From Azospirillum brasilense (GTDB lineage Bacteria > Pseudomonadota > Alphaproteobacteria > Azospirillales > Azospirillaceae): 64,000 nucleotides of DNA. The stretch covers positions 2,853,501-2,917,500 of the forward strand of contig NZ_CP032345.1 of NCBI RefSeq assembly GCF_005222205.1, given 5' to 3'. A program made the translations under genes and the position numbers. Below, piece after piece: positions 4,264 through 29,178 of this stretch; position 1 is the stretch's first letter, and the number at the start of each line of letters is the position of its first letter. Under the pieces are notes generated by a model. It did not search any database. It was not told the DNA's origin and saw only the letters and a list, made by a program, of their open reading frames with translations.

Positions 4264-4728
4264 ATGAAGACCTTCAATCTGAAGCCGACCGACATCGAGA
4301 AGAAGTGGTACGTCGTCGATGCCGACGGCCTCGTTCTCGGCCGGCTTGCCAGCATCCTGGCGAACATCCTGCGCGGCAAGAACAAGCCGACCTTCACCCC
4401 GCACATGGATTGCGGCGACCATGTCGTCGTGATCAACGCGGAGAAGGTCAAGCTGACCGGCAACAAGCGCCAGGACGACATCTTCTACTGGCACACCGGT
4501 TATCCGGGCGGCATCAAGGGCCGTTCCAAGGGCCAGATCCTGGACGGCAAGTACCCGGAGCGCGTGATCGAGAAGGCCGTGGAGCGCATGGTTCCGCGCG
4601 GTCCGCTCGGCCGCAAGGTGATGACCCACCTGAAGGTCTACAAGGGCGCCGCCCACCCGCACGAGGCGCAGCAGCCGGTCGCTCTCGACGTTGCGGCCAT
4701 GAACCCGAAGAATAAGCGGAGCGCGTAA
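4264..4728 (+). CDS. rplM: 50S ribosomal protein L13
   Basis: A 154-residue protein that binds 23S rRNA early in large-subunit assembly. The start [20 protein letters not shown] and the later [20 protein letters not shown] and [10 protein letters not shown] segments are diagnostic for bacterial L13. A GTG two codons upstream (4258) is an alternative start; the ATG gives the usual N-terminus. The stop is 4 bp before rpsI, the classical rplM-rpsI operon pair. Confidence 0.97.
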
Positions 4729-4732
4729 TCCA

Positions 4733-5215
4733 ATGGCTCAGGTTACCACCACCCTTTCCGGCCTGAAGGACATCGCTGCCGCTCCGGCCGCCGCCTCCGC
4801 CGAAGTGGTCGCCCCGAAGCTGGACGCCCAGGGCCGCGCCTACGCCACCGGCAAGCGCAAGGACGCCGTCGCCCGCGTGTGGATCAAGCCGGGCTCCGGC
4901 AAGATCGTCATCAACGGCCGCGACCAGGAAGTCTACTTCGCCCGCCCCGTGCTGCGCATGATGATCGCCCAGCCGTTCGGCATCACCGACCGCGCCGACC
5001 AGTTCGACGTGATGGTCACGGTGGCCGGCGGTGGTCTGTCCGGCCAGGCCGGCGCGGTCCGTCACGGCATCTCCAAGGCGCTGACCTACTTCGAGCCGGC
5101 GCTCCGTCCGCCGCTGAAGGCCGCCGGCTTCCTGACCCGCGACGCCCGCGTCGTCGAGCGTAAGAAGTACGGCAAGGCCAAGGCCCGCCGCAGCTTCCAG
5201 TTCTCGAAGCGCTAA
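4733..5215 (+). CDS. rpsI: 30S ribosomal protein S9
   Basis: A 160-residue protein. An alphaproteobacterial N-terminal extension of about 35 residues precedes the S9 domain, which starts at [18 protein letters not shown]. The conserved C-terminus ends in RRSFQFSKR, whose terminal Lys-Arg contacts P-site tRNA in the small subunit. It lies 4 bp after rplM and is followed by a strong terminator, so the operon is bicistronic. Confidence 0.97.
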
Positions 5216-5350: not shown

Positions 5351-6403
5351 ATGGCCAACAGCACTTCCCCCATCCGCGTCGGCATTCTCGGTGCGTCCGG
5401 TTACACCGGCGCCGAGCTGGTGCGCATGCTTCTCCGCCATCCCGGCGTGGAGATCTGCGCGCTGACGGCCGAGCGACAGGCGGGGAAGCCCATGGCGGAG
5501 GTGTTCCCGCATCTGGGCCAGTTCAACCTGCCCGGCCTCGTGAAGATCGAGGAGGTCGCCTGGGACAAGCTGGACGCCGTCTTCTGCGCCCTGCCGCACG
5601 GCACCACGCAGGAGGTCATCGCCGGCCTGCCGCGCCACATCAAGGTGGTGGACCTGTCCGCCGACTTCCGCCTGTCCGACCCCGCCGAATACGCCACCTG
5701 GTACGGGCATGAGCACCGCGCCGTGGAGCTTCAGAAGGAGGTCGCCTACGGGCTGACCGAGTTCAACCGTCAGGGCGTGCGCAAGGCGCGCGTGGTCGCC
5801 AATCCCGGCTGCTACCCGACCTGCTCGCTGCTGGCCCTGCTGCCGCTGCTGATGGACGAGATGATCGAGCCGGGCGGGATCGTGATCGACGCCAAGTCGG
5901 GCGTTTCCGGCGCCGGGCGCGACGCCAAGCAGCAGAACCTCTTCACCGAGGTATCGGAGGGCTTCAACGCCTACGGCGTCGGCCACCACCGCCACATGCC
6001 GGAGATCGAGCAGGAGCTGCGGCTGGCCGCCGGGCGTCCGGTGACGGTCAGCTTCACGCCGCACCTCGTCCCGATGAACCGCGGCATGATGGCGACGATC
6101 TACGTCCGCATGGCCGACGGGGTCACCGCCGACGACCTGCGCGCCACGCTGACCGCGCGTTACGAATCGGAGCCTTTCGTGAACGTCACGGCGGCGGGCA
6201 TCGCCCCGGCGACGCGCCACGTCCGCGCCTCCAACCAGGCGCTGATCGGCGTCTTCCCCGACCGCACCCCGCGCGGCGCCATCATCGTTTCGGTCATCGA
6301 CAATCTGGTGAAGGGCGCCTCCGGCCAAGCCATCCAGAACATGAACGTCATGTTCGGCCTGGGCGAGACGACCGGCCTGGAACAGGCCCCGCTGTTCCCG
6401 TGA
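5351..6403 (+). CDS. argC: N-acetyl-gamma-glutamyl-phosphate reductase
   Basis: This 350-residue enzyme reduces N-acetylglutamyl phosphate to the semialdehyde with NADPH, the third step of arginine synthesis. The NADP fold motif GILGASGYTGAELVRML is at residues 11-27 and the catalytic cysteine is Cys154 in ANPGCYPTC. Length and the GVSGAGRDAK and HRHMPEIEQEL segments fit type 1 ArgC. The following carbonic anhydrase-like gene overlaps by GTGA, so they are co-translated. Confidence 0.96.
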   Translation: MANSTSPIRVGILGASGYTGAELVRMLLRHPGVEICALTAERQAGKPMAEVFPHLGQFNLPGLVKIEEVAWDKLDAVFCALPHGTTQEVIAGLPRHIKVVDLSADFRLSDPAEYATWYGHEHRAVELQKEVAYGLTEFNRQGVRKARVVANPGCYPTCSLLALLPLLMDEMIEPGGIVIDAKSGVSGAGRDAKQQNLFTEVSEGFNAYGVGHHRHMPEIEQELRLAAGRPVTVSFTPHLVPMNRGMMATIYVRMADGVTADDLRATLTARYESEPFVNVTAAGIAPATRHVRASNQALIGVFPDRTPRGAIIVSVIDNLVKGASGQAIQNMNVMFGLGETTGLEQAPLFP

Positions 6404-6957
6404 CCGAAGAGAAACAGCCCGAGGAAAAGTTCCCTGCGATGTCCGGCCTGATCTTGCCCTTCCAGGGCGCGCATCCGAAGATCGACCCCAGCGTCTATGT
6501 GGCGCCGACGGCCTCGGTCATCGGCGACGTGGAGATCGGGCCGGGCAGCAGCGTCTGGTTCGGCTGCACCATCCGCGGCGACGTGAACGAGATCCGAATC
6601 GGTGCGCGCACCAACATCCAGGACGGTACCGTGATTCACGTCGCTTCGGCGGGGCAGGGGACCTACATCGGCGACGACGTGTCGATCGGCCACATGGCCC
6701 TGTTGCACGCCTGCACGCTGGAGAGCGGCTGCTTCATCGGCATGCAGGCCTGCGTCATGGACGGGGCTTACGTCGAGTCGGGGGCCATGGTGGCCGCCGG
6801 GGCCCTGGTGACCCCTGGGAAGCGTGTTGCCGCCGGGCAACTTTGGGCCGGAAGTCCCGCAAGACCCGTGCGTGCACTTACGGAAAAGGACACATCTTTC
6901 TTCCCGGTAAACATCCGGAACTACGTGCGGCTTGCTCAAATCTACAGAGAGGGCTAA
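6400..6957 (+). CDS. gamma-carbonic anhydrase family protein
   Basis: A 185-residue left-handed beta-helix protein with repeated hexapeptides from about residue 30 to 150. The zinc-ligand histidines of gamma carbonic anhydrases appear to be present: one in GTVIHVA and two in IGHMALLHAC. Family members hydrate CO2 or serve as metal-binding scaffolds; activity here is unproven. The GTG start overlaps the argC stop by four bases; an ATG at 6439 (MSGLILPFQG) is the alternative start and matches the usual family N-terminus. Confidence 0.85.
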   Translation: MTEEKQPEEKFPAMSGLILPFQGAHPKIDPSVYVAPTASVIGDVEIGPGSSVWFGCTIRGDVNEIRIGARTNIQDGTVIHVASAGQGTYIGDDVSIGHMALLHACTLESGCFIGMQACVMDGAYVESGAMVAAGALVTPGKRVAAGQLWAGSPARPVRALTEKDTSFFPVNIRNYVRLAQIYREG

Positions 6958-17674: not shown

Positions 17675-19474
17675 ATGACCGACACCGTTCCCCCCTTCCT
17701 GAACGTCGCCCATTCCCTGTCCGGCAAGCGCTGGCAGGCGCGGCCCTACGACGAGCGGCTGGCCTGGGGGCTGGCGCAGGGGCGGGGGCTGCCGGAGATC
17801 GTCGGGCGGGTGCTCGCCGCCCGCGGGGTGACGGAGGAGGCCTGCGACGGCTTTCTGAACCCGACGCTGAAGGCGCTGCTTCCCGACCCCTCCCGCTTCA
17901 AGGACATGGACATCGCGGCGGAGCGCATCGCCCGCGCCCTCATGGACGGCGAGCCGGTGGCCGTCTTCGGCGACTACGACGTGGACGGCGCCACCTCCTC
18001 CGCGCTGCTGCGGCGCTTTTTCCGGGCGGTGGGGGCGGACCTGCGCATCTACGTGCCCGACCGCATGAAGGAAGGCTACGGCCCCAACGGCCCGGCGCTG
18101 CTGCGGCTGAAGGCCGAGGGCGTGCGGCTGGTGGTGACGGTGGATTGCGGGATCTCCGCCTTCGCGGCGCTGGAGGCGGCGGCGGAGGCCGGGCTGGAGG
18201 TGGTGGTGCTCGACCATCACGCGGCGGAACCGCGCCTGCCGCCGGCCGTTGCCCTGGTCAACCCGAACCGGCTGGACGAGGACGGCGCCTATCGCACGCT
18301 GTGCGCGGCGGGGGTCACCTTCCTGGCCGTGGTGGCGGTGAACCGGGCGCTGCGCAGCGCCGGATTCTACGCGGGCCGCAACGAGCCGAACCTGATGGAG
18401 TGGCTCGACCTCGTGGCTCTGGGCACGGTGTGCGATGTGGTTCCCCTGACCGGGTTGAACCGGGCGCTGGTGGCGCAGGGGCTGAAGGTGATGGCGCGGC
18501 GCGCCAACCCCGGCCTGTCCGCCCTGTCCGACGTCGCCGGGGTGAAGGAGAAGCCGGACGCCTACCACGCCGGCTTCGTGCTCGGCCCGCGGGTCAACGC
18601 GGGCGGGCGCGTCGGCGCGTCGGACCTTGGGGCGCGGCTGCTCTCCACCGACGACCCCATGGAGGCGATGGAACTGGCCCAGAAGCTGGAGGCTCACAAC
18701 GCCGAGCGCCGCGCGGTGGAGCAGGGCGTGCTCGCTGACGCCATGGCCCGGCTGGAGGAGCACGCCGAGGAGCTGGCCGAGCTGGTCTTCGTGGCGGGGG
18801 AGGGTTGGCATCCCGGCGTGATCGGCATCGTCGCCAGCCGCCTGAAGGAGCGCTACAGCCGCCCCGCCTGCGTCATCGCCCTGGAGGAGGGGGCGGACGG
18901 CACGGTGATCGGCAAGGCCTCGGGCCGTTCGGTGCGCGGGGTCGATCTCGGGGCGGCGGTGATCGCGGCGCGGCAGGAGGGGTTGCTGATGGCCGGCGGC
19001 GGGCACCGCATGGCGGCGGGCTTCACTGTGGCCGGGAGCAGGCTGGCCGACCTGCAGGCCTTCCTGACCGGCCGCGTCGCCGAACAGGTGGCCGCGGCCC
19101 CGCTGGTGCCGACGCTGGAACTGGACGGCGCGCTGTCCGTGGGGGCGGCGAACACGTCCCTGGTGGACCGCCTGAACCAGCTCGGCCCGTTCGGCACCGG
19201 CAACGCCGAGCCGCGCTTCGCCGTCACCGACGCCCGCGTGGTGCGGGCCGACGTGGTCGGGGCGAATCACGTCCGCTGCATCCTGCAGGGCAGCGACGGC
19301 GCCCGGCTGAAGGCCATCGCCTTCCGCGCGCTGGAGAGCGAGATGGGAAAAGCCCTGCTGATGGGCCGCGGATCGCCCTTCCACATCGCCGGTGTCCTGC
19401 GCATCGACCGCTGGAACGGGGCGGAGGGAGTCCAGCTCCTGATCGACGACGCCGCACCCGCGCAAACCATGTGA
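17675..19474 (+). CDS. recJ: single-stranded-DNA-specific exonuclease RecJ
   Basis: A 599-residue 5'-3' exonuclease of recombination and mismatch repair. The DHH-domain motifs are visible: VAVFGDYDVDGATSSALL, VTVDCGISAFAAL, VVVLDHHAAEP, and the DHHA1 motif with GGGHRMAAGFTV. An OB-like C-terminal domain follows. The start at 17675 was chosen because the protein begins just before the typical N-terminal region; an in-frame ATG at 17636 is possible. It lies just upstream of the tRNA-Glu gene. Confidence 0.94.
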   Translation: MTDTVPPFLNVAHSLSGKRWQARPYDERLAWGLAQGRGLPEIVGRVLAARGVTEEACDGFLNPTLKALLPDPSRFKDMDIAAERIARALMDGEPVAVFGDYDVDGATSSALLRRFFRAVGADLRIYVPDRMKEGYGPNGPALLRLKAEGVRLVVTVDCGISAFAALEAAAEAGLEVVVLDHHAAEPRLPPAVALVNPNRLDEDGAYRTLCAAGVTFLAVVAVNRALRSAGFYAGRNEPNLMEWLDLVALGTVCDVVPLTGLNRALVAQGLKVMARRANPGLSALSDVAGVKEKPDAYHAGFVLGPRVNAGGRVGASDLGARLLSTDDPMEAMELAQKLEAHNAERRAVEQGVLADAMARLEEHAEELAELVFVAGEGWHPGVIGIVASRLKERYSRPACVIALEEGADGTVIGKASGRSVRGVDLGAAVIAARQEGLLMAGGGHRMAAGFTVAGSRLADLQAFLTGRVAEQVAAAPLVPTLELDGALSVGAANTSLVDRLNQLGPFGTGNAEPRFAVTDARVVRADVVGANHVRCILQGSDGARLKAIAFRALESEMGKALLMGRGSPFHIAGVLRIDRWNGAEGVQLLIDDAAPAQTM

Positions 19475-19550
19475 ATGCAAACAAATTCGGCTCGGGAGCG
19501 CTGCATGGGGGGCATACGCGAACGGGGTAGAAAGGAGTTGGAAAAAACGC

Positions 19551-19579
19551 TTGCGCTCGGCCCGTCATCCCATTAGTAA
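19551..19579 (+). promoter_or_regulatory. promoter of tRNA-Glu
   Basis: TTGCGC at 19551-19556, a 17-bp spacer and TAGTAA at 19574-19579, 18 bp before the tRNA 5' end. Confidence 0.6.
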
Positions 19580-19597
19580 TCCCGCCACGCCAACGAC

Positions 19598-19673
19598 GTC
19601 CCCATCGTCTAGAGGCCTAGGACACCGCCCTTTCACGGCGGCGACAGGGGTTCGAATCCCCTTGGGGACGCCA
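19598..19673 (+). tRNA. tRNA-Glu (anticodon TTC)
   Basis: A full cloverleaf: acceptor arms GTCCCCA and TGGGGAC, anticodon loop CTTTCAC with anticodon TTC, T-loop GGTTCGAATCC, discriminator G and an encoded CCA at 19671-19673. Its 3' end is the left attachment site of the genomic island; the tRNA itself stays intact. Confidence 0.97.
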
Positions 19674-19675
19674 CC
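19657..19675 (+). repeat. attL: island junction in tRNA-Glu 3' end
   Basis: TCCCCTTGGGGACGCCACC, identical to 27751-27769. The bases just outside differ on both sides, which fixes the repeat at exactly 19 bp. It covers the T-arm end, acceptor arm and CCA of the tRNA. Confidence 0.92.
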
Positions 19676-19741
19676 ACCGCTCCGACGCGGTGATGCGCAA
19701 GAAGTCTTGCGAGATCAGGTACTTCCAGCCCTGCGCAGTGC

Positions 19742-19760
19742 TACGAACTGTGCTACGATG
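19742..19760 (+). repeat. arm-type repeat near attL
   Basis: TACGAACTGTGCTACGATG matches 27671-27689 at 17 of 19 bases, in the same orientation. It sits 66 bp inside attL and overlaps the integrase leader, so it may be an integrase arm site and autoregulatory site. Confidence 0.5.
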
Positions 19761-19765
19761 GGGGC

Positions 19766-21367
19766 ATGGAAGGCATGGCGAAACTACCCTATCTGCAAAA
19801 GCACCCGCGTACGGGTATGTACTGGTTCCGGGGTCTCGTGCCCAAGGAGCTTCAAGGCGTCCTGGGACGGAAAGAGATCATCGAGAGTCTGCGGACCAAG
19901 GATGCATCCGAAGTGCCCGCCCGTTACGCGGATGCACGCAAGCGATTCGAAGATAAGCTCGCGCTTGCTCGTTCGGGTGATTGGCCGGGCGTTTCTTTGG
20001 ATGCGATAGAGATTGTTGCACACCATTGGGCACGCTGGCATTGGGAGACGAATCCTGAAGTCGATCCCCTAGGGAGCAATCGCGGTCTTGGGCTTGGTAG
20101 CGAGTGCGAACTCGTAGAATCCCTCAAGACCTACCTTGCTTCTCGCGACATCCGCCTTGGAGACCAAGCATTCCAGATACTTGTCGGCTGTGCGACCGCA
20201 GAGCACCATGAGATGTACGGTGGTTGGGCGCCTGACGTTGACCAACTGGTTCGTAGACGCCTGAGAGACACGTGCGTGGCAGTCGCGCCGAATGCCGGGC
20301 AGCAGCAGTCCGCTACTGAGGTAAGTCCTCAACGCCTACAGTCCTTTAAGGAGAAGGCCGCGCGCCCCTTTACGTCGTTCTTGGATGAATTTCTTCGCGC
20401 ACGTGGTCATCTCGACGCGGACGGCAACTACACGAGTAGTGGAAAGGGATATAAGAAGACGTTTGAACGTTTGGCAAAGCTGGTCGGCGAGAAGCCTATT
20501 GCGGATATTGATACGTACGATATTGAATCATTCTATCAGAAGCTTCTTGTTACCTCCAGCGATAAAGGGAATGGCGCACTTGCTTATGACTCTGTCAATC
20601 GGTCCATTAGCAACATTCGCGTGTTTTTTACATGGGCATATGCGCGTCATCTAATCGATGAGAACCCGGCCCGGAAGGTCACCGTGGAGCGGACGGCGTT
20701 TGCTACTGCTAATCAGAAGGGCGACCGGGTATATTCGATAGACGACCTCAAGCGTATCTTCAACGTGCCTCTCTATACCGGATGCCTAGACGAACATCGT
20801 ATCTACGAACCCGGCTCGCGCATCCTACGCGGTGACCACCGCTACTGGTTTCCGCTCGTGGGTCTTTACACTGGGATGCGCTTGTCAGAGATCGCTCAGT
20901 TAGAGTTTGATGATTTGATCGTTCTGAATGGGCGAGTGCACTTTTCTGTGAACCCCGTGTCAAAGAACGGGAACAAGAAGAATCTGAAAACTGCCTCAGC
21001 GGTGAGGCAAGTGCCGATGCACAACGACCTGGAGGACTTGGGGTTCTTGGATTGGGTAGAAGGGCGGAAGCTGCTTTCGAAAGATGGGCGAATATTTCTT
21101 GGATTTAACTATTCAAAGTGGTGGAATGCCGTCTTTCTGGTTAATATCAAGATGAAGACGCGAACGAAGGTGTTCCATTCGTTCCGGCACACGTTCGCCG
21201 ATGCGCTCCGTGCGGCTACCGACAACGCGGAGACACGAGATCGCTTAATGGGGCATTTTCGGCAGGGCACTGGGGCGCTTTACGGGTCACGCGACCTGCT
21301 CCCGCACGAGAGCGACGTCATTGATTCGGTCGCGTTCCCCGGCCTCGACCTAAAACACCTACGATAG
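19766..21367 (+). CDS. int: tyrosine site-specific integrase of the island
   Basis: A 533-residue recombinase. An N-terminal DUF6538-like segment (about 8-45: YLQKHPRTGMYWFRG) is followed by a SAM-like core-binding domain (about 200-300) and the catalytic domain. The catalytic residues are Arg372 (LYTGMRLSEIAQ), His471 and Arg474 (HSFRHTFAD), His497 (MGH) and the nucleophile Tyr506 (GTGALYG). It should cut and join DNA at the tRNA-Glu att site. GGGGG lies just before the ATG; an ATG at 19775 is an alternative. Base composition is lower in GC than the flanks, consistent with transfer. Confidence 0.95.
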   Translation: MEGMAKLPYLQKHPRTGMYWFRGLVPKELQGVLGRKEIIESLRTKDASEVPARYADARKRFEDKLALARSGDWPGVSLDAIEIVAHHWARWHWETNPEVDPLGSNRGLGLGSECELVESLKTYLASRDIRLGDQAFQILVGCATAEHHEMYGGWAPDVDQLVRRRLRDTCVAVAPNAGQQQSATEVSPQRLQSFKEKAARPFTSFLDEFLRARGHLDADGNYTSSGKGYKKTFERLAKLVGEKPIADIDTYDIESFYQKLLVTSSDKGNGALAYDSVNRSISNIRVFFTWAYARHLIDENPARKVTVERTAFATANQKGDRVYSIDDLKRIFNVPLYTGCLDEHRIYEPGSRILRGDHRYWFPLVGLYTGMRLSEIAQLEFDDLIVLNGRVHFSVNPVSKNGNKKNLKTASAVRQVPMHNDLEDLGFLDWVEGRKLLSKDGRIFLGFNYSKWWNAVFLVNIKMKTRTKVFHSFRHTFADALRAATDNAETRDRLMGHFRQGTGALYGSRDLLPHESDVIDSVAFPGLDLKHLR

Positions 21368-21530
21368 ATCGTATAGACTGGAGGGGAGCGTGGTAGTCGC
21401 GCCTTGAGTGGTACAGAGGGTACCCTTCCGTTCATCGCGATCAGGGGCATTCGGACGCGCTGGGCGGTCTCCAATAGGCGCCGGTTGGTCGCCATCGGGA
21501 CTGCTGCCTCAGAAGACCGCCAGAGGCGCC

Positions 21531-21564
21531 CGGAAGGGCGGGGTGGTTGTTGCCCCTCCTTCCG
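21531..21564. other. hairpin downstream of integrase and Rep operon
   Basis: Arms CGGAAGGGCGGGG and CCCCTCCTTCCG (one bulge) around a 9-nt loop, between the convergent integrase and minus-strand operon. No U-run, so termination is uncertain. A smaller dyad TACGAT-AG-ATCGTA lies at 21360-21373. Confidence 0.35.
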
Positions 21565-21591
21565 GTAGCCAGACCCGGTTCAGCGGGCTTC

Positions 21592-21831
21592 CTAGGGGCT
21601 TGCCGATGGGTACTGACGGGGGCGCCCGCCCGCCTTTATGATCTCCTTGACCATTACCGGTCCCAGGTGAACGCCAGCGTGTTCGAGCACTGCCGTGTAC
21701 ACCACGTTGCCGACGGTCGTCCCCTTGAGGACGGCCAGCACCCCGGCAAGCTCACGCAACTCGGCCATGGCTTGGGGGTCGGAGAGGCGCAAGCTCCAAC
21801 GAGCGTCCGTGTCCAAGGCTTCAACGGTCAT
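21592..21831 (-). CDS. small island protein, function unknown
   Basis: A 79-residue protein beginning MTVEALDTDARWSLRLSDPQ. The ATG at 21831 has GGGAGG nine bases upstream and overlaps the end of the preceding gene by 11 bp, so it belongs to the same operon. No domain is recognised; helices are likely in the middle (ELAGVLAVLKGTTVGNVVYT). Confidence 0.6.
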   Translation of the reverse strand: MTVEALDTDARWSLRLSDPQAMAELRELAGVLAVLKGTTVGNVVYTAVLEHAGVHLGPVMVKEIIKAGGRPRQYPSASP

Positions 21832-22291
21832 GGCGAGAGACCTCCCGGCTGATCTGTTCGAGTGCACGGGCGATCCGGTCGAGCAGGGGGCCATTCCGCT
21901 GGTTCGCCTGCACGAACGACAATGCGTAGCGACGCAGCACTTCTACGTCCGTCTTGGTGATCTCCTCGATCAACCGCCGCGCAACCCCGTGGTACACGTT
22001 GTCGATCCCTGCGCGCCGGATCAATTCAGCGAGATCGGCGTCCAGTTCATCGCCTTCTGGGTTGTCGGGTGGCACAAATCGCCTCGACTTTAAGTCGGCG
22101 ATTTCGTCCTCGCTCTTCTTGATCTCGTATTCATGCTCCTGGCGGCGCTTGGTTCGCTCCCAAGTGTCCAATCCTTCTTCAAGAAGCTGAGTACCGGCTT
22201 GACTGATTGGTTTGCCAATGGCGTCCGCGTACTCTTCAAGAAGCTCTGCTACTTTCCATGTTTGCACATGAACAATCGTGTTACTGGACAC
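21821..22291 (-). CDS. island protein of unknown function
   Basis: A 156-residue, charged, largely helical protein starting at GTG 22291 (MSSNTIVHVQTWKVAELLEE). GGAGGG is placed seven bases before this GTG, which is a much better site than that of the ATG five codons earlier (22306). The stretch KRRQEHEYEIKKSEDEIADL may form a short coiled coil. It is the middle gene of the Rep operon, 47 bp after the Rep stop. A role in replication, copy control or DNA binding is possible but not shown. Confidence 0.6.
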   Translation of the reverse strand: MSSNTIVHVQTWKVAELLEEYADAIGKPISQAGTQLLEEGLDTWERTKRRQEHEYEIKKSEDEIADLKSRRFVPPDNPEGDELDADLAELIRRAGIDNVYHGVARRLIEEITKTDVEVLRRYALSFVQANQRNGPLLDRIARALEQISREVSRHDR

Positions 22292-22338
22292 ATTGTTACC
22301 CTCCATTGCAGTTGTCGGACTTGTCGTCCATTGACTAT

Positions 22339-23073
22339 TTACGCCGCCATGCTGAATGGAAGGTCGTGTGGGTGGGGAGTGCCGTTCTTGCCGTCCGGCT
22401 GCAAGAGCGCCGCCAGCCCGTCCGGCGTGGTCTCTTCGTCCCACCCGGCCCGGAGCCGCTGTCGGAAGCCCAGAGAGTGGCTGACCCCGGCCCGCTTGGT
22501 CCGTATGACCCCCTGCATCCCACGGTGCTGGATGCCGAGATGGGCGGCGAAGTTCTCTGGGCCGGACGGACCGTAGAAGGTCAACGTGTGATCGACCCCT
22601 TTGAGGCGGTACAGAATCCCACCGAGCCGTTGATTAGGGTGGAAGTAGAACTTGGGCGTGTCGTCGCCCTGGTCGCGCTCGAAGTAGGTAATGTGCTGAT
22701 TCCCAGTATGACCCGGTACGAAGGAGTTGAAGTTAATAATGAACTCCGCGAACAACTTCTTCGGCACATGCACGGCCAGATGCATGTGGACCCGGTGCTT
22801 TGTCAACAGGTCAGTGACCGAACGCTTGCGAACTGCTTCGAGCGTCCAGATGTACGTGGGTACAATATTGTTTCTGCGCAGCCAGCGGTTCATCTTGGCG
22901 ATGAAACGGCTCTGACGCTCCTGGTGGTTGACTTCACTCCATCCATCAGTGAGGGACCAGTCAATAGTTACGAAGGCAGTCAGTGGGGTACGCTTGTACT
23001 CACTGAAACGGAATGCATTGGTGAGGTTTGTTACGGCCTCGCGTGACAACGATGTGGATGACTTCCTCGGCAT
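22339..23073 (-). CDS. HUH-type rolling-circle Rep-like protein
   Basis: A 244-residue protein. TYIWTLEAV followed by HRVHMHLAVHV gives an HUH metal motif (His96-Met-His98), and LYRLKG gives a Tyr155-x-x-Lys158 nucleophile motif; this order and spacing fit single-tyrosine HUH replication initiators such as those of inoviruses and small plasmids. It would nick and join single-stranded DNA at an origin. It starts an operon of three minus-strand genes. An IS630 element is inserted with its TA target 6 bases beyond the start codon (23079-23080), so the native promoter is now about 1.1 kb away. The assignment is by motif only. Confidence 0.55.
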   Translation of the reverse strand: MPRKSSTSLSREAVTNLTNAFRFSEYKRTPLTAFVTIDWSLTDGWSEVNHQERQSRFIAKMNRWLRRNNIVPTYIWTLEAVRKRSVTDLLTKHRVHMHLAVHVPKKLFAEFIINFNSFVPGHTGNQHITYFERDQGDDTPKFYFHPNQRLGGILYRLKGVDHTLTFYGPSGPENFAAHLGIQHRGMQGVIRTKRAGVSHSLGFRQRLRAGWDEETTPDGLAALLQPDGKNGTPHPHDLPFSMAA

Positions 23074-23161
23074 GATCTTAAAGCGGATTGTCGCTGAGTA
23101 TAGACGGAATTTTGGCTGGCCTGAGCGGTTGGAGGAAGACACCGCTGAAGGACCGCGCGCC

Positions 23162-23521
23162 ATGGGCCAGCCATATTCCGCCGATCTGCGCGAACGGGTT
23201 CTGCTGGCTTATGAGCGCCACGAGGGCGGCCCCGAGTTGCTGGCGCGGCGCTTCCAGATCAGCCGAGCCTGCGCGTACAACTGGGTGCGGGCCGCGCGCC
23301 TTGAGGGGCGGCGGGTCGCCAAGCCCCATGCCGGCGGCGTACCAGCCAAACTGGACGCGGAGGGCGTGAGCGTGCTGCGGGCCTTGGTGCGGGAGGATAA
23401 TGACGCGACACTGGCACAGTACCGCGACCGGTTGGCCGCACGCACCGGCATCGCGCTGAGCCCGGCGGTGGTGTGCCGCACCTTGAAGCGGCTGGGGTTG
23501 GCGCGCAAAAAAAGACGCTGA
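23162..23521 (+). CDS. IS630 transposase, OrfA (DNA-binding part)
   Basis: A 119-residue N-terminal part with a helix-turn-helix (ELLARRFQISRACAYNWVRA) and a second helical DNA-binding region. It ends at TGA 23519-23521, six codons after a run of seven A (23507-23513). The catalytic part continues in the -1 frame, so the full transposase (about 320 residues) requires ribosomal or transcriptional slippage on the A-run. Confidence 0.85.
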   Translation: MGQPYSADLRERVLLAYERHEGGPELLARRFQISRACAYNWVRAARLEGRRVAKPHAGGVPAKLDAEGVSVLRALVREDNDATLAQYRDRLAARTGIALSPAVVCRTLKRLGLARKKRR

Positions 23522-24126
23522 GGGCCAGCGAGCAAGAGCGCATGGATATCGCCGCGGAACGCGCGGCCTACCGGGACGATGCGGTGGTCCACGAACCGGC
23601 GCGTTTGGTTTTCCTCGATGAAACCGGCATCAACACCCAGATGACGCCCACCCAGGCCCGGGCGCCGCGCGGCCAGCGGGCGCTCGGGTCCGTGCCCTGT
23701 GGGTCGTGGCACCGCGTCACGGTGCTCGGGGCGTTGAGCGCCGAAGGCATGCTGGCCGCCATGAGCATCGAGGCGTCTACCTCCTCGGCCGTGTTTCTCG
23801 CCTTTGTCGAGCAGGTGCTCTTGCCCGTGCTCCGGCGCGACAAACCCGGCGCCGTGGTCGTGATGGACAACCTTTCCGCTCACAAGCGGGCCGATATCCT
23901 CGCCGCCTTTGAGACCGCAGGGATCCGTGTCCGCTTCCTCCCGCGCTACTCGCCCGACCTGTCGCCCATCGAGCCCGGCTGGGCCAAGCTCAAAGGAATC
24001 CTGCGCGCCAAGGAAGCCCGCACCGTCGAGGCCCTCAACGAGGAACTCGGCCCAGCCCTCAATGCGATCACCGCCACCGACGCCAAAGCGTGGTTCAAGC
24101 TATGCGGCTACCCGAATCTAAACTGA
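23473..24126 (+). CDS. IS630 transposase, OrfB (catalytic DDE part)
   Basis: The open frame carrying the catalytic core, probably entered by a -1 shift at 23507-23514 rather than from its own start. The DDE residues are Asp in RLVFLDETGIN, Asp in VVMDNLSAHK and Glu in DLSPIEPGWAKLK, which are typical of IS630. The frame is uninterrupted to the stop at 24126, 14 bp before the right end, so the element looks intact. Confidence 0.88.
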   Translation: MPHLEAAGVGAQKKTLRASEQERMDIAAERAAYRDDAVVHEPARLVFLDETGINTQMTPTQARAPRGQRALGSVPCGSWHRVTVLGALSAEGMLAAMSIEASTSSAVFLAFVEQVLLPVLRRDKPGAVVVMDNLSAHKRADILAAFETAGIRVRFLPRYSPDLSPIEPGWAKLKGILRAKEARTVEALNEELGPALNAITATDAKAWFKLCGYPNLN

Positions 24127-24139
24127 GCCGAAATCCGCT

Positions 24140-24187
24140 TTAGTTGTTCTCGTAGATGTTGGTGTTCTTCAGGGCGATGTTCTCCAT
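24140..24187 (-). CDS. possible 15-codon leader ORF of the Rep operon
   Basis: The minus strand reads MENIALKNTNIYENN and stops at TAA formed at the IS junction. If the IS and one TA copy are removed, the same TAA remains, followed 5 bases later by the Rep ATG. It could be a coupled leader peptide. Support is weak: no clear ribosome site. Confidence 0.2.
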   Translation of the reverse strand: MENIALKNTNIYENN

Positions 24188-24832
24188 GCTTAATACCAGC
24201 GCCCCATATGCGGCTGGGCAATAGCTAGGCGCCGTATGGCTTTGATCGTCAGCAGAAGTTCTGAGTTTTGAACTTCTTGACGGTTCAGAACCGTATTTTG
24301 AACACCATCCTCCAACTACCCTGTATGTCCCAAGCGCCCAAGTTTCAAGATAATAGGCAATTTACGTAAAATACAAGGTATGTAGTGAATTGTCTCGCCA
24401 TCGAGGGTGGCTCTTGTCGGTAGGGCGCTGGTGCCGCCTGTGCTTTGATGCTGATCTCGATCTTGTCGATGTTCGTCGTTCTCTTCCAACATCGTGAGGA
24501 AGCTGCGTTGAGGATGTCGGGGAGGCGGCGCTGGTCATCGGCGCGCGCTCGTCACCGTTCTCCTCGTCTGGCGTTGGGACGGAATAGGTTGGACATCACC
24601 GCCGAACACATCGATGTCAGTGTATCTGGGGCGTGTAGCTTACGTGCCTAACTGTGCGGGAGTATTCCAAGCTGCCGCGCAATCTGGAATGTGCGACATG
24701 GTGCGCTGGGGGTAACGCGTTGGCACCTTCCACCACTTTTTCGCTTGAAAATTCGTGAGCCTGTGACAAACTTGTGATCGTTCACGTCTCCCGGACTCAT
24801 CCGCCGGGCAACGTCCACTGATTGAGCGTCGG
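24188..24832. other. intergenic region before RT module
   Basis: About 650 bp without a convincing protein gene. Composition is mixed, with an AT-rich part around 24240-24400. It may hold the former Rep operon promoter (minus strand) and the 5' part of the RT-associated transcript, but no specific signal is clear. Confidence 0.4.
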
Positions 24833-24973
24833 TGGTGCGAGTACGGTTGCAATCCGTCCACGGTGTCACGATGGCGCCGATCGGTCGCGGATCAAGACCG
24901 GCAGCGAGCATCGCAGGCAGCGACAGGTGAACAGCCGGAACCACGTTCCGTGCTCGAAGCCTCGAAGCGCACG
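24833..24973 (+). repeat. 141-bp structured repeat, copy 1
   Basis: Matches 25232-25372 at 140 of 141 bases; the only difference is A24843 against G25242. It contains a hairpin at 24933-24954 (AGC-CGGAAC, loop CAC, GTTCCG-T-GCT) and a 3' end dyad CGTGC/GCACG ending exactly at the repeat border. The copies are 399 bp apart, a multiple of three, and lie in one open frame. Only the RT gene follows copy 2. Confidence 0.9.
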
Positions 24974-25034
24974 CGAGTGCTGGCAGGCACCTTCCGGATG
25001 GCCCCTGCACCCAAGCAGAGAAGAGGGGGCTAGA

Positions 25035-25385
25035 ATGCTTGATCGGAAGGGCGGGGCTGCTGGCGCGGCTCCTGGGGAAGCGCAAGGGTTGCGTGTCCGT
25101 CGGGCGGTTTCGCTTGCGGCGGCGGTCGCGGTGTGCTATAGTATACTGGGGCTGAGTGAACTGGCTGCGGGTGCCAACATCTCGTTCGGGGCGCAGGTCT
25201 CGGTCGCGTTGGGGGCGAAGCGGTCAGCCGATGGTGCGAGTGCGGTTGCAATCCGTCCACGGTGTCACGATGGCGCCGATCGGTCGCGGATCAAGACCGG
25301 CAGCGAGCATCGCAGGCAGCGACAGGTGAACAGCCGGAACCACGTTCCGTGCTCGAAGCCTCGAAGCGCACGTGCTGATACCTAG
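25035..25385 (+). CDS. small putative membrane protein coupled to RT
   Basis: A 116-residue frame starting at ATG 25035 with GAGGGGG upstream at good spacing. Residues about 24-46 (AVSLAAAVAVCYSILGLSEL) form one likely membrane segment. The C-terminal half, about 47 basic residues, is encoded by repeat copy 2. Its TAG stop shares a base with the GTG start of the RT (TAGTG), which suggests translational coupling and supports both calls. No homologue is recognised. The alternative is that this stretch is a non-coding template RNA and the frame is fortuitous. Confidence 0.45.
   Translation: MLDRKGGAAGAAPGEAQGLRVRRAVSLAAAVAVCYSILGLSELAAGANISFGAQVSVALGAKRSADGASAVAIRPRCHDGADRSRIKTGSEHRRQRQVNSRNHVPCSKPRSARADT
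25114..25142 (+). promoter_or_regulatory. promoter placing repeat copy 2 in the RT leader
   Basis: TTGCGG at 25114-25119, a 17-bp spacer and TATAGT at 25137-25142. A transcript from about 25149 would carry copy 2 in a leader of about 235 nt before the RT. A second TATACT overlaps at 25142-25147. Confidence 0.5.
25232..25372 (+). repeat. 141-bp structured repeat, copy 2
   Basis: Near-identical to 24833-24973. It ends 12 bp before the RT start. The same hairpins fall at 25332-25353 and at the 3' border. It is the natural candidate for an RNA recognised or copied by the RT. Confidence 0.9.
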
Positions 25386-26629
25386 TGTGGGTGCCTAATT
25401 CGGAAACACTGGGAGGACGCTTGGCAGTACCCGCGCTTCAAAGACTTGCCCGCATCAGCAATCTCAAAGCCGTGTGGGATGCGTCTGGTGACGCCAAAGG
25501 GGGCAAGAAGGCCGCCGGACCTGATGGTAGGCGCCCTGAAGCGTTTGCCTTGAAGCTAATTGACAACCTATCTGAGGTGCGCGTCCAGTTGCTGGACGGC
25601 AGCTTTCGATTCGACCCGCTGCGGGCTGTGGCCTTCCAGAAGCCGAACTCATCCAAGTACCGGATCATCTGCATTCCCAATGTGCGTGATCGTCTCGTCC
25701 AGAGAGCGTTGGTTGCGTTCCTGACCAAGGAGACTGACCGGCTGAAGCTTGAGAACAACGCAAGCTTTGGATTCATTAGTGGTCGAGATCGCGGAGTGGC
25801 GGGGGCCGTCAAGACTGCTTGTAGACGGCGAGGTCAACTGCCTTGGGCCTTCAAGTCCGACATCTTGTCGTTCTTCGACGAGATCGATCGTCAGATCTTG
25901 GTGGATCGCCTGAGGCGGTGTGTTCGGAGCGTATCGGTTCTTAAGTTGCTTGAGCAAGCTGTCAACTGTGAGATCGGTGAAGTAGACCCGGATACCAGGA
26001 AGAAGATTGCCACCACGAGTATTAGGAACGGTAAGGGGTTGAGGCAGGGTATGCCCCTCTCGCCTGTACTATCGAACTTCTTTCTTGCTCCATTTGACAG
26101 GCATTTTAACGACCGTCGAGAAAACCTCGTCCGGTACGCTGATGACTTTATCGTGTTTGCAGAATCTCGGGAGGAATGCGAGGCGTACCACACTGTCTGT
26201 TGTGATTTGCTTTCTGAACTGAACCTTGGCATTCCAGCTATTGCAGCAGAGAGCAAGACGAAGATCTACGCGCCCGATGAACCTGCGGAGTTCCTAGGGT
26301 ATGAAATCTCACCGATTTCTTCTCGCAGATATCGTCCCAGGATTCCTGAGGTTGCTTTTCGGGAATTGACAGATAAGGTAAGGAGCTTTCAGTCGTACTC
26401 GACAGTCCCTAAGAAGGCAAAGTCTATTGAGTCTGCCTTGGCGCAGCTTGGCCGGATTGTGGATGGCTATGTCCATGCATACCATCTCGGGGATAACATC
26501 AAGGATCTCGAATCCCACCTAATCAATCTTCAGGCGCAGTGCCGTCAAAGACTGTTCGAGAGCCTGTTCGGCAATGCTGCGGTTGCTGCGTTGACCGTCG
26601 AGCAGAGGAAGTTCCTTTCACTAACCTAA
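25385..26629 (+). CDS. reverse transcriptase of unassigned family (retron/UG/G2-like)
   Basis: A 414-residue RNA-directed DNA polymerase. Fingers-palm motifs run in order: AGPDGRRPEAFA (44), QKPNSSKYRIICIPN (85), FKSDILSFFDEID with Asp159, GKGLRQGMPLSP (217-227), YADD at 251-254 and EFLGYEIS. The QG..SP motif fits group II, retron or UG/Abi RTs rather than typical diversity-generating RTs, which have SQ. There is no maturase X domain, no HNH, and no retron NAXXH motif. About 120 C-terminal residues form a helical thumb or accessory region. The GTG start overlaps the stop of the small ORF; another GTG follows at 25391. No protease or integrase partner is adjacent, so a defence or retroelement role is likely. 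Confidence 0.85.
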   Translation: MWVPNSETLGGRLAVPALQRLARISNLKAVWDASGDAKGGKKAAGPDGRRPEAFALKLIDNLSEVRVQLLDGSFRFDPLRAVAFQKPNSSKYRIICIPNVRDRLVQRALVAFLTKETDRLKLENNASFGFISGRDRGVAGAVKTACRRRGQLPWAFKSDILSFFDEIDRQILVDRLRRCVRSVSVLKLLEQAVNCEIGEVDPDTRKKIATTSIRNGKGLRQGMPLSPVLSNFFLAPFDRHFNDRRENLVRYADDFIVFAESREECEAYHTVCCDLLSELNLGIPAIAAESKTKIYAPDEPAEFLGYEISPISSRRYRPRIPEVAFRELTDKVRSFQSYSTVPKKAKSIESALAQLGRIVDGYVHAYHLGDNIKDLESHLINLQAQCRQRLFESLFGNAAVAALTVEQRKFLSLT

Positions 26630-26873
26630 TGCTCAGGGCGTGGGCATGGTGCGCTACGCGACCCCGGCAGTTGATACTGTTCAAGCTGGTAGATCTCCAG
26701 GTGCTTCGAGGAGGAGGCGTGCTCGGCGCAGCTACCTCGTAGCACCATACCTACCCCTGACAGGCGTGGTGCTTGCTTCGGTGCAGACACTGGTGTACCT
26801 TTTTCTCAGGAAACAGGTACGACAATGCGCACGTAAGCCGCTACGCCGCTCAGGTTCTTCCATGGAGAACGAC

Positions 26874-27545
26874 ATGAAGCCCGTCCAGGCAATCGCGTAC
26901 CTTCGGACCAGTTCTGCGGCGAACGTCGGTGGTGACAGCGACCAGCGCCAGCGCGCCGCCGTGGACAGCTACGCGAGCCGCGCCGGGTTCGAGGTCGTGA
27001 AGGAGTTCTACGACGCGGCGGTGAGCGGGGCGGACCCTATCGACCAGCGGGACGGCTTCACGTCCTTGCTGGCGTGGGCGACCGAGACCAACGTCACGAC
27101 GATCATCGTGGAGAACGCCAGCCGCTTCGCCCGCGACCTGATCGTGCAGGAGGTCGGCTACGCCTCGCTGAAGGCCCAGGGCTTCACGCTGATCGCCGCC
27201 GACGATCCCGACGCCTTCACTGCCGACACCCCCACCGCGCGCATGGTCCGGCAGATTCTGGGCGCCGTGAGCGAGTTTGAAAAGGCCAACCTCGTTGCCA
27301 AGCTGAAGGGCGCGCGCGACCGGAAGTCGGCAGCAGCGGGGAAGCGCATCGAAGGTCGGAAGGGGTACGACGACACCAACCCGGACGTGGTGCGCGAGGC
27401 CAAGCGCCTCGCCAGAAAGAACCCGAAGACAGGCAAGACCCGGTCTCTTCGGGAGATCGCGGCTGAACTGGCCCGGCTCGGGCATGTTACCCGCGCCGGG
27501 AAGCCGTTCAGCGCCTCCCAGGTGTCCCGACTGCTGGCCTACTAA
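26874..27545 (+). CDS. small serine recombinase (resolvase/invertase family)
   Basis: A 223-residue protein. The N-terminal resolvase domain starts QAIAYLRTSSAANVGGDSDQ, with the nucleophilic serine in YLRTSS; ENASRFARDLIV is the conserved Arg/Asp-containing segment. A C-terminal helix-turn-helix lies around TRSLREIAAELARLG and FSASQVSRLL. It could resolve multimers or invert DNA in the island. The ATG at 26874 is favoured by GGAG seven bases upstream; 26862 is an alternative. Its codon use is closer to the host than that of the RT. Confidence 0.88.
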   Translation: MKPVQAIAYLRTSSAANVGGDSDQRQRAAVDSYASRAGFEVVKEFYDAAVSGADPIDQRDGFTSLLAWATETNVTTIIVENASRFARDLIVQEVGYASLKAQGFTLIAADDPDAFTADTPTARMVRQILGAVSEFEKANLVAKLKGARDRKSAAAGKRIEGRKGYDDTNPDVVREAKRLARKNPKTGKTRSLREIAAELARLGHVTRAGKPFSASQVSRLLAY

Positions 27546-27670
27546 GCGGGTGCCGAACCTCAGCCCTGCCAGCGGCGGGAGGTCAACACGATCAGACTTC
27601 GAAGGAAGGTTCGGTAACGTGTGCGCATCACCTATGTGGCGCTCCCATCATGGACGCCTTGCTCAAGTGA

Positions 27671-27689
27671 TACGAGCGGTGCTACGATG
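27671..27689 (+). repeat. arm-type repeat near attR
   Basis: TACGAGCGGTGCTACGATG, 17 of 19 bases identical to 19742-19760 and 61 bp inside attR. Same orientation. Confidence 0.5.
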
Positions 27690-27750
27690 TGGAAGATGTT
27701 CAGGGTTCTAAGTTGTTGATTTCTCGGGGCTTGCCTTTCGCGTCATCGCC

Positions 27751-27769
27751 TCCCCTTGGGGACGCCACC
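27751..27769 (+). repeat. attR: right island junction
   Basis: TCCCCTTGGGGACGCCACC, exact copy of the tRNA-Glu 3' end at 19657-19675. Only the acceptor end is duplicated, so no second tRNA is present. Confidence 0.92.
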
Positions 27770-27794
27770 TTCTCACAGGTTGGCACCGGTTTCG

Positions 27795-27820
27795 AAAGCT
27801 CAGCCCTTGGCTGAGCTTTT
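27795..27820 (+). terminator. displaced terminator of tRNA-Glu
   Basis: Arms AAAGCTCAGCC (27795-27805) and GGCTGAGCTTT (27809-27819) with a CTT loop and a T-run. It lies 26 bp after attR, where the tRNA terminator would be without the island. Confidence 0.8.
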
Positions 27821-28010
27821 GTCGTTTCAGGCGTCATTTGTCTGCCGCCTTTGCCGGTCTGGCAAGCGACCTGTTTGCCGCGCCGCGTTCGCCGGCTTCT
27901 CCCACCCGCCGAAATAGCGCCAAGGGGCGGTTTCCAGGGGTGGCTTGGTGGACTAACGTTCCTCACGCCCCTTCGATGCTTCGACGGGGCCAAGGGAACG
28001 GGAGACATCC

Positions 28011-28850
28011 ATGACCATTCCGACGACACGCCTTCCTTCGGGAACCGCCGTGCCGGTGCTCGGCCAGGGCACCTGGTACATGGGCGAGGACAGCCGCGAC
28101 CGCGCGCGGGAGGCGGCGGCGCTGCGGCTCGGCCTCGACCTCGGCATGACGCTGATCGACACGGCGGAGATGTATGCCGACGGCGGAGCGGAGGAGGTGG
28201 TCGGCGAGGCCATCGCCGGGCGCCGCGACGAGGTGTTCCTGGTCAGCAAGGTGCTGCCGATGAACGCCAGCCGCCGCGGCACCATCGCGGCCTGCGAACG
28301 CAGCCTGAAGCGCCTGCGCACCGATCGCATCGACCTCTATCTGCTGCACTGGCGCGGCAGCCACGATTTTTCCGAAACCATCGAGGCTTTCGACACGCTG
28401 ATGCGCGACGGCAAGATCGGCCGATGGGGCGTCAGCAACCTGGATCTCCAGGACATGGAGGAGTTGGTCGGCACGCCGGGCGGGGAGGGGGTGCAGACCA
28501 ACCAGCTCCTCTACAACCTGACCCGCCGCGGCATCGAATACGACCTGCTGCCCTGGTGCCGTGGGCGGGGCATTCCGATCATGGCCTATTCGCCCATTGA
28601 GCAGGGGCGCATGCTGCGCCATCCGGAGCTTCGCCGCGTCGCCGACCGGCACGGCGCGACGCCGGCCCAGGTCGGGCTGGCTTGGCTGCTCCGCCAGGAC
28701 GGGATGATCGCCATCCCCAAGGCGTCGGATCCCGCCCACGTCCGCGACAACCGGGCCGCCGCCGATTTGCGGCTGGACGAGCAGGATCTCGCGGACCTCG
28801 ACCGGGCCTTCCCGCCGCCCCGCGAGCCGCGCCCGCTGGAGATGCTGTAG
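28011..28850 (+). CDS. aldo/keto reductase
   Basis: A 279-residue NADPH-dependent TIM-barrel oxidoreductase. The catalytic tetrad is visible as Asp and Tyr in LIDTAEMYADGGAEE, Lys in FLVSKVLP and His in YLLHWRG. AYSPIEQGRML and IPKASDPAHVRDN belong to the cofactor site. It reduces small carbonyl compounds; the natural substrate is unknown. GGAGACATCC precedes the ATG. It is the first host gene after the island. Confidence 0.9.
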   Translation: MTIPTTRLPSGTAVPVLGQGTWYMGEDSRDRAREAAALRLGLDLGMTLIDTAEMYADGGAEEVVGEAIAGRRDEVFLVSKVLPMNASRRGTIAACERSLKRLRTDRIDLYLLHWRGSHDFSETIEAFDTLMRDGKIGRWGVSNLDLQDMEELVGTPGGEGVQTNQLLYNLTRRGIEYDLLPWCRGRGIPIMAYSPIEQGRMLRHPELRRVADRHGATPAQVGLAWLLRQDGMIAIPKASDPAHVRDNRAAADLRLDEQDLADLDRAFPPPREPRPLEML

Positions 28851-28971
28851 CGCGGCGAAGCGCCGCGCTTGCGGTGGCGGACTCGATTTCCCTGGCCGAA
28901 TGGCCTATGTATGCTGCATTGCGGAATCAGGCGTGCCTGAGCCCGCTATCGGTTTATCCGGGAATCGAAGC

Positions 28972-29178
28972 ATGCTCGCCATCGTTCTTCTGTCCATGCT
29001 GCTGTCGGGCTTCGCCATCGTCGTGGCGCGGATTCTGACCGCCGAGGTCGCCACCGCCGGCATGCCGGTCCGCGATCCCTGGTCGCCCCGGCATCTCCGC
29101 CGGGTGAAGAAGGCGCGCAGGGTGCAGGAGGAGATCGAGGGCGGCCCGTCCTGGGCGTCCTTCCCGCGCGGGCTCTGA
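28972..29178 (+). CDS. small single-pass membrane protein
   Basis: A 68-residue protein starting MLAIVLLSMLLSGFAIVVAR, a membrane helix, then a basic cytoplasmic tail (RRVKKARRVQEEIEGG). No family recognised. The longer frame from 28900 has no ribosome site. A strong terminator follows. Confidence 0.5.
   Translation: MLAIVLLSMLLSGFAIVVARILTAEVATAGMPVRDPWSPRHLRRVKKARRVQEEIEGGPSWASFPRGL

Follow-up and report, generated by a model that had tools for sequence, protein, structure and literature searches.

A reverse transcriptase (RT) gene of Azospirillum brasilense is preceded by two nearly identical direct repeats, R1 and R2, that enclose a spacer, S, and this R-S-R arrangement is found in 24 of the 28 family loci that could be assessed, in 23 of them directly upstream of the RT. 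Because the arrangement recurs to this extent, chance and local accident are excluded, and an isolated duplication is ruled out by the same count. Moreover, the unit bounded by the copies has a length divisible by three and is read in an unbroken frame with a start codon and a hydrophobic stretch, features that make the doubled element resemble the two ends of a head-to-tail template. We propose, and regard as an evenly balanced proposition, that the R-S-R RNA would be the template of the RT, and that a jump from R1 to R2 would yield head-to-tail cDNA encoding an endless membrane protein. The preliminary description of this locus had suggested an upstream non-coding RNA, present twice, as the RT template; a structured element is still plausible as the template, whereas the doubling would represent two template ends rather than two RNAs.

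The A. brasilense locus

The window (the whole 64-kb stretch of A. brasilense DNA that was analysed) holds a single R-S-R arrangement, and the two R copies are the only matches to R in the 7.2-Mb genome at E ≤ 0.001. As described earlier, the copies are 141 bp long, are identical at 140 of 141 positions and lie 399 bp apart from start to start; the sole mismatch is an A/G difference at 24843, and a repeat finder placed the borders at 24830-24973 and 25229-25372. The features of the locus are as follows.

19657-19675, left end of the 8.1-kb integrative element, a 19-bp repeat at the 3′ end of tRNA-Glu
19766-21367, tyrosine integrase of the element that carries the RT
24833-24973, + strand, R1, first repeat copy (from the repeat comparison)
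24974-25231, + strand, S, the spacer; R1 and S form a 399-bp unit of 133 codons with one stop-free frame if joined head to tail
24999-25032, + strand, predicted hairpin at the S start, its 3′ arm overlapping the Shine-Dalgarno-like GAGGGGG (25023-25029)
25035-25385, + strand, S ORF of 116 aa, from an ATG in S through R2 to a stop 13 nt past R2
25114-25142, + strand, promoter-like TTGCGG-N17-TATAGT inside the S ORF, directed toward R2 and the RT; the best site of the unit, with 1 of 100 shuffles as good
25232-25372, + strand, R2, second repeat copy (from the repeat comparison)
25381-25413, + strand, stem-loop just past R2 with an 8-bp stem and a 17-nt loop (p 0.07 when taken alone)
25421-26629, + strand, RT of 402 aa from the likely TTG start, behind GGGAGGA (25411-25417)
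26640-27545, serine recombinase inside the element
27751-27769, right end of the element, the same 19 bp

The longest reading of the RT starts from GTG 25385 and covers 25385-26629, with 414 codons, an RVT_1 match and YADD, in agreement with the 414-residue protein first described, and the 12-bp gap then given between R2 and the RT holds for this reading, of which GTG 25385 is the first possible start. To judge from the sequence, TTG 25421 is the likelier start. The RT had been assigned to a mobile island that lacked an integrase partner; the island is an 8.1-kb element at tRNA-Glu with 19-bp ends, and it does encode a tyrosine integrase, so the second part of that assignment is incorrect. A weak match to a phage G2P-type replication protein (22339-23163, − strand) and an IS630-type transposase region also lie within 19657-27769.

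Recurrence, period and reading frame

Relatives of the RT with 25-39% identity came from plasmids, genomes and viral contigs; a genome scan with the A. brasilense protein as the single query found no relative, and a scan with the family alignment kept 80 of 508 loci. With each locus counted once, and with duplicates (L113, L116-L119, L121, L123 and L124) and near-identical plasmid matches excluded, the family comprises 33 loci, five of which are unassessable: L010, L013, L016 and L088 break off within the RT or too close to it, and L128 is an RT fragment in which no repeat was found. The contigs of L010, L013 and L088 stop 69-234 nt upstream of the assigned RT start, which is the expected place of R2, as assemblies do at repeats. 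R-S-R is present in A. brasilense, L005-L009, L011, L012, L014, L015, L017, L019, L021, L022, L089, L110, L111, L114, L120, L122, L125-L127 and L129. R is 63-150 bp long over the family, with 96-100% identity within a locus and little likeness between lineages; hence a search for the element at related RTs, as suggested in the preliminary description, recovers the arrangement but no shared repeat sequence. As a control, 149 RT loci from outside the family (1.17 Mb) were searched for repeats of at least 60 bp with 95% identity and a spacing of 250-460, and gave two R-S-R-like arrangements, neither with a period that is a multiple of three; a looser early count had found some repeat in 26 of 72 control loci, which were for the most part either DGR-like viral loci (18) or cases of short repeats.

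Mismatches between R1 and R2 are few and of mixed kinds across the loci. The copies differ mainly in one block of 1-3 bases at a like place in L005, L012, L014, L017, L022 and L089, and by one base in L129; the blocks lie elsewhere in L021 and L126. Two loci (L006 and L127) have broken RT frames, and L110, from Acinetobacter baumannii X4-300, carries R-S-R inverted behind a partial RT, as a rearranged copy of the L007 type. The four assessable loci with no second R (L004, L018, L020 and L115) have open RT frames, and thus R-S-R may be dispensable or easily lost. In L020 from Acinetobacter calcoaceticus (4594-4851), the upstream flank is followed by a single R, the stem-loop and the RT, and S is missing, whereas its sister L021 has R-S-R; on this comparison L020 appears as a clean collapse between the repeats. 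Its single R keeps the AAA form found in copy 2 of L021. Single-R loci mean either that the function was lost or that one R is sufficient for something. Downstream of the RT, L018 has a 79-nt repeat with a period of 153 (6387-6618), which was judged unrelated and was not counted.

One RT outside the family, L034 from Mucilaginibacter (Bacteroidota), also has R-S-R upstream (4493-4584 and 4828-4919, 92 nt, 3 mismatches, two of them adjacent). Its period is 335 and no open frame is present, though it has a short ORF with a hydrophobic stretch, and the arrangement may therefore be older than the endless frame. The matches listed for L034 (12, plasmids) offered no locus for further work, and none was found in viral contigs.

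The period of R-S-R is a multiple of three in 23 of the 24 loci, and takes 16 different lengths (303, 306, 342, 363, 369, 375, 378, 381, 384, 387, 396, 399, 402, 411, 423 and 453 bp). The exception is L122, with a period of 395, which differs from its sister L017 by one base between R1 and the S start codon, and in which the frame from there through R2 is kept. In all 23 multiple-of-three loci one RT-strand frame runs through the joined R+S unit without a stop (L110 being read inverted), and opposite-strand frames are also open in L014 (one) and L089 (two). For further tests the 24 loci were reduced to 19 lineages by removing the near copies L111, L120, L127 and L110, together with L122, which both nearly duplicates L017 and is the one exception; with that exception already left out, all 19 of the 19 chosen lineages have periods divisible by three. 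Single-base shuffles of the unit were open in 0 to 10% of cases over the 19. L017 and L022 are closely similar, which makes 18 a safer lineage count, and the odds of the multiple-of-three rule arising are near 3e-9 when 18 lineages are treated as independent, which is true only in part. The pattern was first noticed in L005-L007 and A. brasilense, and the later tally includes these as well as new loci.

The sequence from R1 to the first S start is open throughout, for a total of 501 codons over the 19 lineages, 147 of which come from L019 and L129, where the first ATG lies far into S. In L011, L012 and L089 the frame contains no ATG, GTG or TTG until R1 has ended, and R1 has a stop 0-9 nt upstream; with usual starts, reading from R into S is thus sensible there only with a preceding unit. 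A plain protein with two like ends that starts before R1 is contradicted in these three of the 19 lineages by the missing starts, and is tenable in the others. A stop is found within 30 nt upstream of R1 in 13 of the 19, and the open frame ends 1-81 nt past R2 in all of them.

The protein of the open frame is hydrophilic in its R part and has its hydrophobic maximum in the S part, as found in 22 of 22 units. The 19-residue means are 0.99-2.98 and exceed 1.6 in 19 units (raw maxima, taken without comparison to a control), and are weak in L009, L014 and L129; in A. brasilense the stretch covers unit residues 94-112. Neither Pfam nor PADLOC has a match to the A. brasilense S ORF, and ten S proteins gave no family match in them, with one Pfam hit at E 0.08, under the cut-off. 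dN/dS was 0.31-0.80 for S (eight pairs) and 0.48-1.38 for R (seven pairs). Between L017 and L005, dS is 0.08 in R, 0.54 in S and 2.1 in the RT gene, and these low values in R and S indicate that both are also held as nucleotide sequence, that is, as RNA or DNA.

The promoter scan was confined to the RT strand and used sigma-70-type weights, from which alphaproteobacterial promoters may differ. The best sigma-70-like site of the unit lies within S behind the start codon in 14 of the 19 units, at p ≤ 0.05 in 6 of these 14 (p values uncorrected for 19 units), and in A. brasilense, L114 and L015 a TTGnnn-N17-TATA(A/G)T site stands at nearly equal positions. In the other five (L009, L019, L022, L089 and L126) the signal is absent or elsewhere; the best site of L019, which shuffles equalled in at most 5%, is located just before the first ATG. 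In its chromosomal setting the site in S could act on R2 and the RT only; once units are joined, the next S would come under its control.

The best hairpin behind R2 begins at a distance of 4-19 nt from the repeat in the 18 lineages tested (L022 also being left out here), and its stem sequence differs between them. Since the test always returns some best hairpin, it is the p values that count and not the presence of a hairpin: p ≤ 0.05 against shuffles was reached in 11 of the 18, the others gave 0.053-0.133, and the combined p is 7e-12. Six additional RTs were put through the same test, with p ≤ 0.05 for L004, L010 and L088 and 0.083 for L020; L013 and L018 had no significant stem-loop before the RT against shuffles. 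In the alphaproteobacterial loci (A. brasilense, L008, L015 and L114) S begins with arms of the GGCC(T/C)C...GAGG type, and the 3′ arm is the Shine-Dalgarno sequence of the S start. The resulting hairpin is the predicted best fold in A. brasilense, L008 and L114; in L015 it is not, the arms being present by sequence.

In one clade (L005, L017, L122, L022, L012, L014 and L089), base pairs join R1 and the sequence upstream of it to the first half of S, enclosing a local hairpin; a stem-loop comes after R2. With this structure 90% of cells are paired, against at most 48% for slid versions, and 16 pairs have changed on both sides compared with 7.5 ± 1.7 in shuffles (whole structure); the structure was derived from the tested alignment, and the test thus favours it. 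L089 fits poorly, with 16 of 38 R1:S pairs. A scan for duplexes between R and S was near null, with z below −3 in only L114 and L089 of 18. We rejected the possibility that pairing upstream of R1 masks the S start and that joining of units exposes it, as in the joined context the start was more open in 4 and less open in 9 of 18.

Proposed mechanism and alternatives

The proposed reading is built on the two R copies, the period, the open frame, the hydrophobic stretch, the stem-loop, the conservation and pairing of the RNA in one clade and the monophyly of the RTs, all of which were computed; from these we infer transcription, reverse transcription, the jump, translation, toxicity and defence. 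An RNA spanning R1, S, R2 and the stem-loop would be the template of the adjacent RT, which would initiate in or behind R2 and copy S and then R1. The new DNA 3′ end, complementary to R, would then shift to R2 and be extended again, and every round would add one R+S unit. Retroviral R regions are direct repeats at both template ends that likewise let the RT switch templates, whereas here there is no virus and no integration step, and the proposed product is tandem rather than a single copy. The product would be a tandem cDNA with a period that is a multiple of three; after second-strand formation the promoter in the 3′ part of S would precede the start codon of the next unit, and transcription of the stop-free frame would give a repetitive membrane protein, which would probably arrest the cell, for example during phage infection. 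A defence role of the locus is conjectural, and few defence genes lie nearby: none was found among six neighbouring ORFs scanned in the window, and in the scan of neighbours methylase, restriction, AbiEi and PDC-S53 models each matched 1-2 of 110 ORFs (among the 25 of 30 families listed), these being 110 of the 118 collected, with eight of L111 left out.

Against an endless gene stand the four loci with no second R, the period of 395 in L122 and the lack of an open frame in L034. Moreover, because R-S and S-R junctions are already present in the genome, head-to-tail joining makes no new junction, and with promoter-like sites also found before R1 in gammaproteobacterial loci, S is possibly expressed from the chromosome. 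That R1 and R2 are nearly identical is also explicable by ordinary gene conversion between close direct repeats. A rival reading is an ordinary two-gene unit, in which the S ORF would be translated from the chromosomal transcript, the RT and R RNA would control or sense the S protein in the manner of a retron and its effector, and R would be doubled because the RNA needs R both before and behind S, with gene conversion keeping the copies alike. The S start codon stands behind a clear Shine-Dalgarno sequence in several loci, the S frame overlaps the RT start in L005 and, for the longest RT reading, in A. brasilense, and the termination of the frame shortly past R2, the promoter-like sites before R1 in gammaproteobacterial loci and the dN/dS of S below 1 in eight pairs are as such a unit would have them. 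Nevertheless, a two-gene unit needs neither a multiple-of-three period nor an in-frame, open path from R1 to the S start, as seen in 19 of 19 lineages with L122 left out, and we consider this explanation unlikely, though the likeliest of the rivals.

The frame favours the joining of units, and it cannot separate cDNA from circles. A DNA switch, in which recombination between R1 and R2 would leave one R and release an R+S circle, would equally place the promoter before the S start and yield the same endless frame as a concatemer, read round and round, with the RT either a passenger or a converter of circle RNA to DNA. L020, with its single R and no S beside the R-S-R of L021, and the three more loci with no second R are what such a switch would leave behind; yet direct repeats of ~150 bp would be expected to collapse even if this served no function, and a serine recombinase adjoins the RT only in A. 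brasilense and L004 of five gene lists inspected (also L005, L006 and L111). We regard the switch as improbable, and the RT next door favours cDNA over circles. The same neighbour points to DNA rather than to a circular RNA, which would form if R1 and R2 were processed at matching positions and would then serve for rolling translation or reverse transcription. Such a circle would be in keeping with the matching sites of the two R copies, the multiple-of-three unit and the predicted structure in R, but no Rfam ribozyme was found in 18000-29000 (E ≤ 1) or in nine relatives (gathering score), and it is very improbable in our estimate. Overall, Rfam matched a tRNA and, elsewhere in L007, a C4 antisense RNA, and gave one tRNA-like hit below threshold.

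That R1 and R2 are the template and variable repeats of a diversity-generating retroelement (DGR) is hardly credible: two similar repeats of ~140 bp near an RT do resemble the 18 viral DGR-like controls superficially, but the repeats are 96-100% identical with one A/G mismatch in 141 in A. brasilense and few, mixed mismatches elsewhere that form no adenine-biased pair, the periods are in frame at 303-453 against 512-599 in those controls, and the RT is not a member of the DGR-like clade, which is represented by three near-duplicate rows.

The reverse transcriptase among known systems

No model in Pfam, NCBIfam or PADLOC names the RT family, which is matched by generic RT models. In the RT phylogeny that the preliminary description had proposed, a 44-row maximum-likelihood tree, the 25 rows of the family lie on one side of a branch with support 100/98, and 13 group II-like, three DGR-like, two DRT2 and one UG17 rows lie apart from them; the group II-like and DGR-like labels were assigned in the present analysis, and the placement of the UG17 and DRT2 rows is unsure owing to long branches. 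The family is thus a monophyletic, separate clade. Its lack of maturase or retron character, also pointed out earlier, was borne out by 170 bits with the maturase model TIGR04416 (cut-off 300), 56 bits with the retron St85 model (cut-off 235) and no intron RNA family in Rfam at E ≤ 1 in 18000-29000, and a group II intron and a retron were rejected accordingly. Group II RTs and G2L4 are nonetheless the closest relatives by fold and by sequence profile: the structure model (mean pLDDT 87.6) has them as its top seven folds with TM-scores of 0.69-0.75 (G2L4 0.75), a template-switching complex of GsI-IIC RT being among the top matches. The family differs from them in its scores below the maturase cut-off, its separate clade, the R-S-R in front and the lack of an intron RNA in the region scanned.

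DRT2 makes concatemeric cDNA from an upstream RNA, with units that are divisible by three and stop-free, a template that ends in ACA and a frame on the reverse complement of the ncRNA (PMC12039810, PMC11100668). In the literature consulted, DRT2 with neo is the one case in which a gene comes into being only through reverse transcription, and its concatemeric, stop-free units show that such a mechanism exists. The present family shares with DRT2 an RT with an upstream structured RNA, a unit divisible by three and a single stop-free joined frame (23 of 24 R-S-R loci, A. brasilense included), as well as a promoter-like site so set that joining puts it before the start codon. It differs in having units of 303-453 nt instead of 111-129 nt, direct repeats of 63-150 nt at the ends instead of a 3-nt ACA, the frame on the RT strand instead of the reverse complement, and an RT nearer to group II RTs in fold and sequence (TM-score 0.55 with the DRT2 fold). 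The long R ends would then do the job that ACA does in DRT2. Membership in DRT2 (UG2) was rejected, since the Drt2 model gave 45.8 bits, where two DRT2 loci scored 534.8 and 402.6, and since the tree position and the long repeat ends set the family apart; it thus appears to match the DRT2 pattern by anatomy and to fail as a member by its RT.

Among the UG models UG17 scored best, and the cDNA of DRT10, the UG17 system, is also repetitive. Nevertheless, DRT10 copies a 9-nt motif and has a SLATT partner (PMC12632851), and UG17 RTs have SLATT_5 in 82% of cases (PMC8934634); with 134 bits against 511 for one UG17 RT, and no SLATT in a Pfam scan of eight proteins of the window, membership was rejected. 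Another RT system, DRT9, makes poly-dA (PMC12483538).

These comparisons suggest that the A. brasilense locus belongs to a second kind of gene-on-demand system, after the known phage-defence system DRT2. We think it possible, at somewhat less than an even chance, that the family is a second, separate lineage of gene-writing RTs, which would turn an inactive 1.35-unit chromosomal copy into an endless tandem membrane-toxin gene via retrovirus-like transfer between identical ends. If so, bacteria would have evolved gene assembly by reverse transcription on at least two occasions, closing the loop in different ways, and it would be a recurring way to hide dangerous genes; the simpler, predictable layout of long identical ends, a period divisible by three and a stop-free frame would then serve as a sequence rule for finding more. 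Long repeat ends would also be a natural device for programmable tandem DNA. No description of R-S-R with an RT was found in the open-licence literature, most subscription papers lying outside the search.

The family is rare. At a profile E ≤ 1e-60, it was found in 3 of 385 alphaproteobacterial genomes, A. brasilense included, in 1 of 398 genomes of a phylum sample and in 1 of 369 genomes of the class of Nitrosovibrio, in both cases that of the query itself, and in 9 of 149 Acinetobacter genomes, including that of the query.
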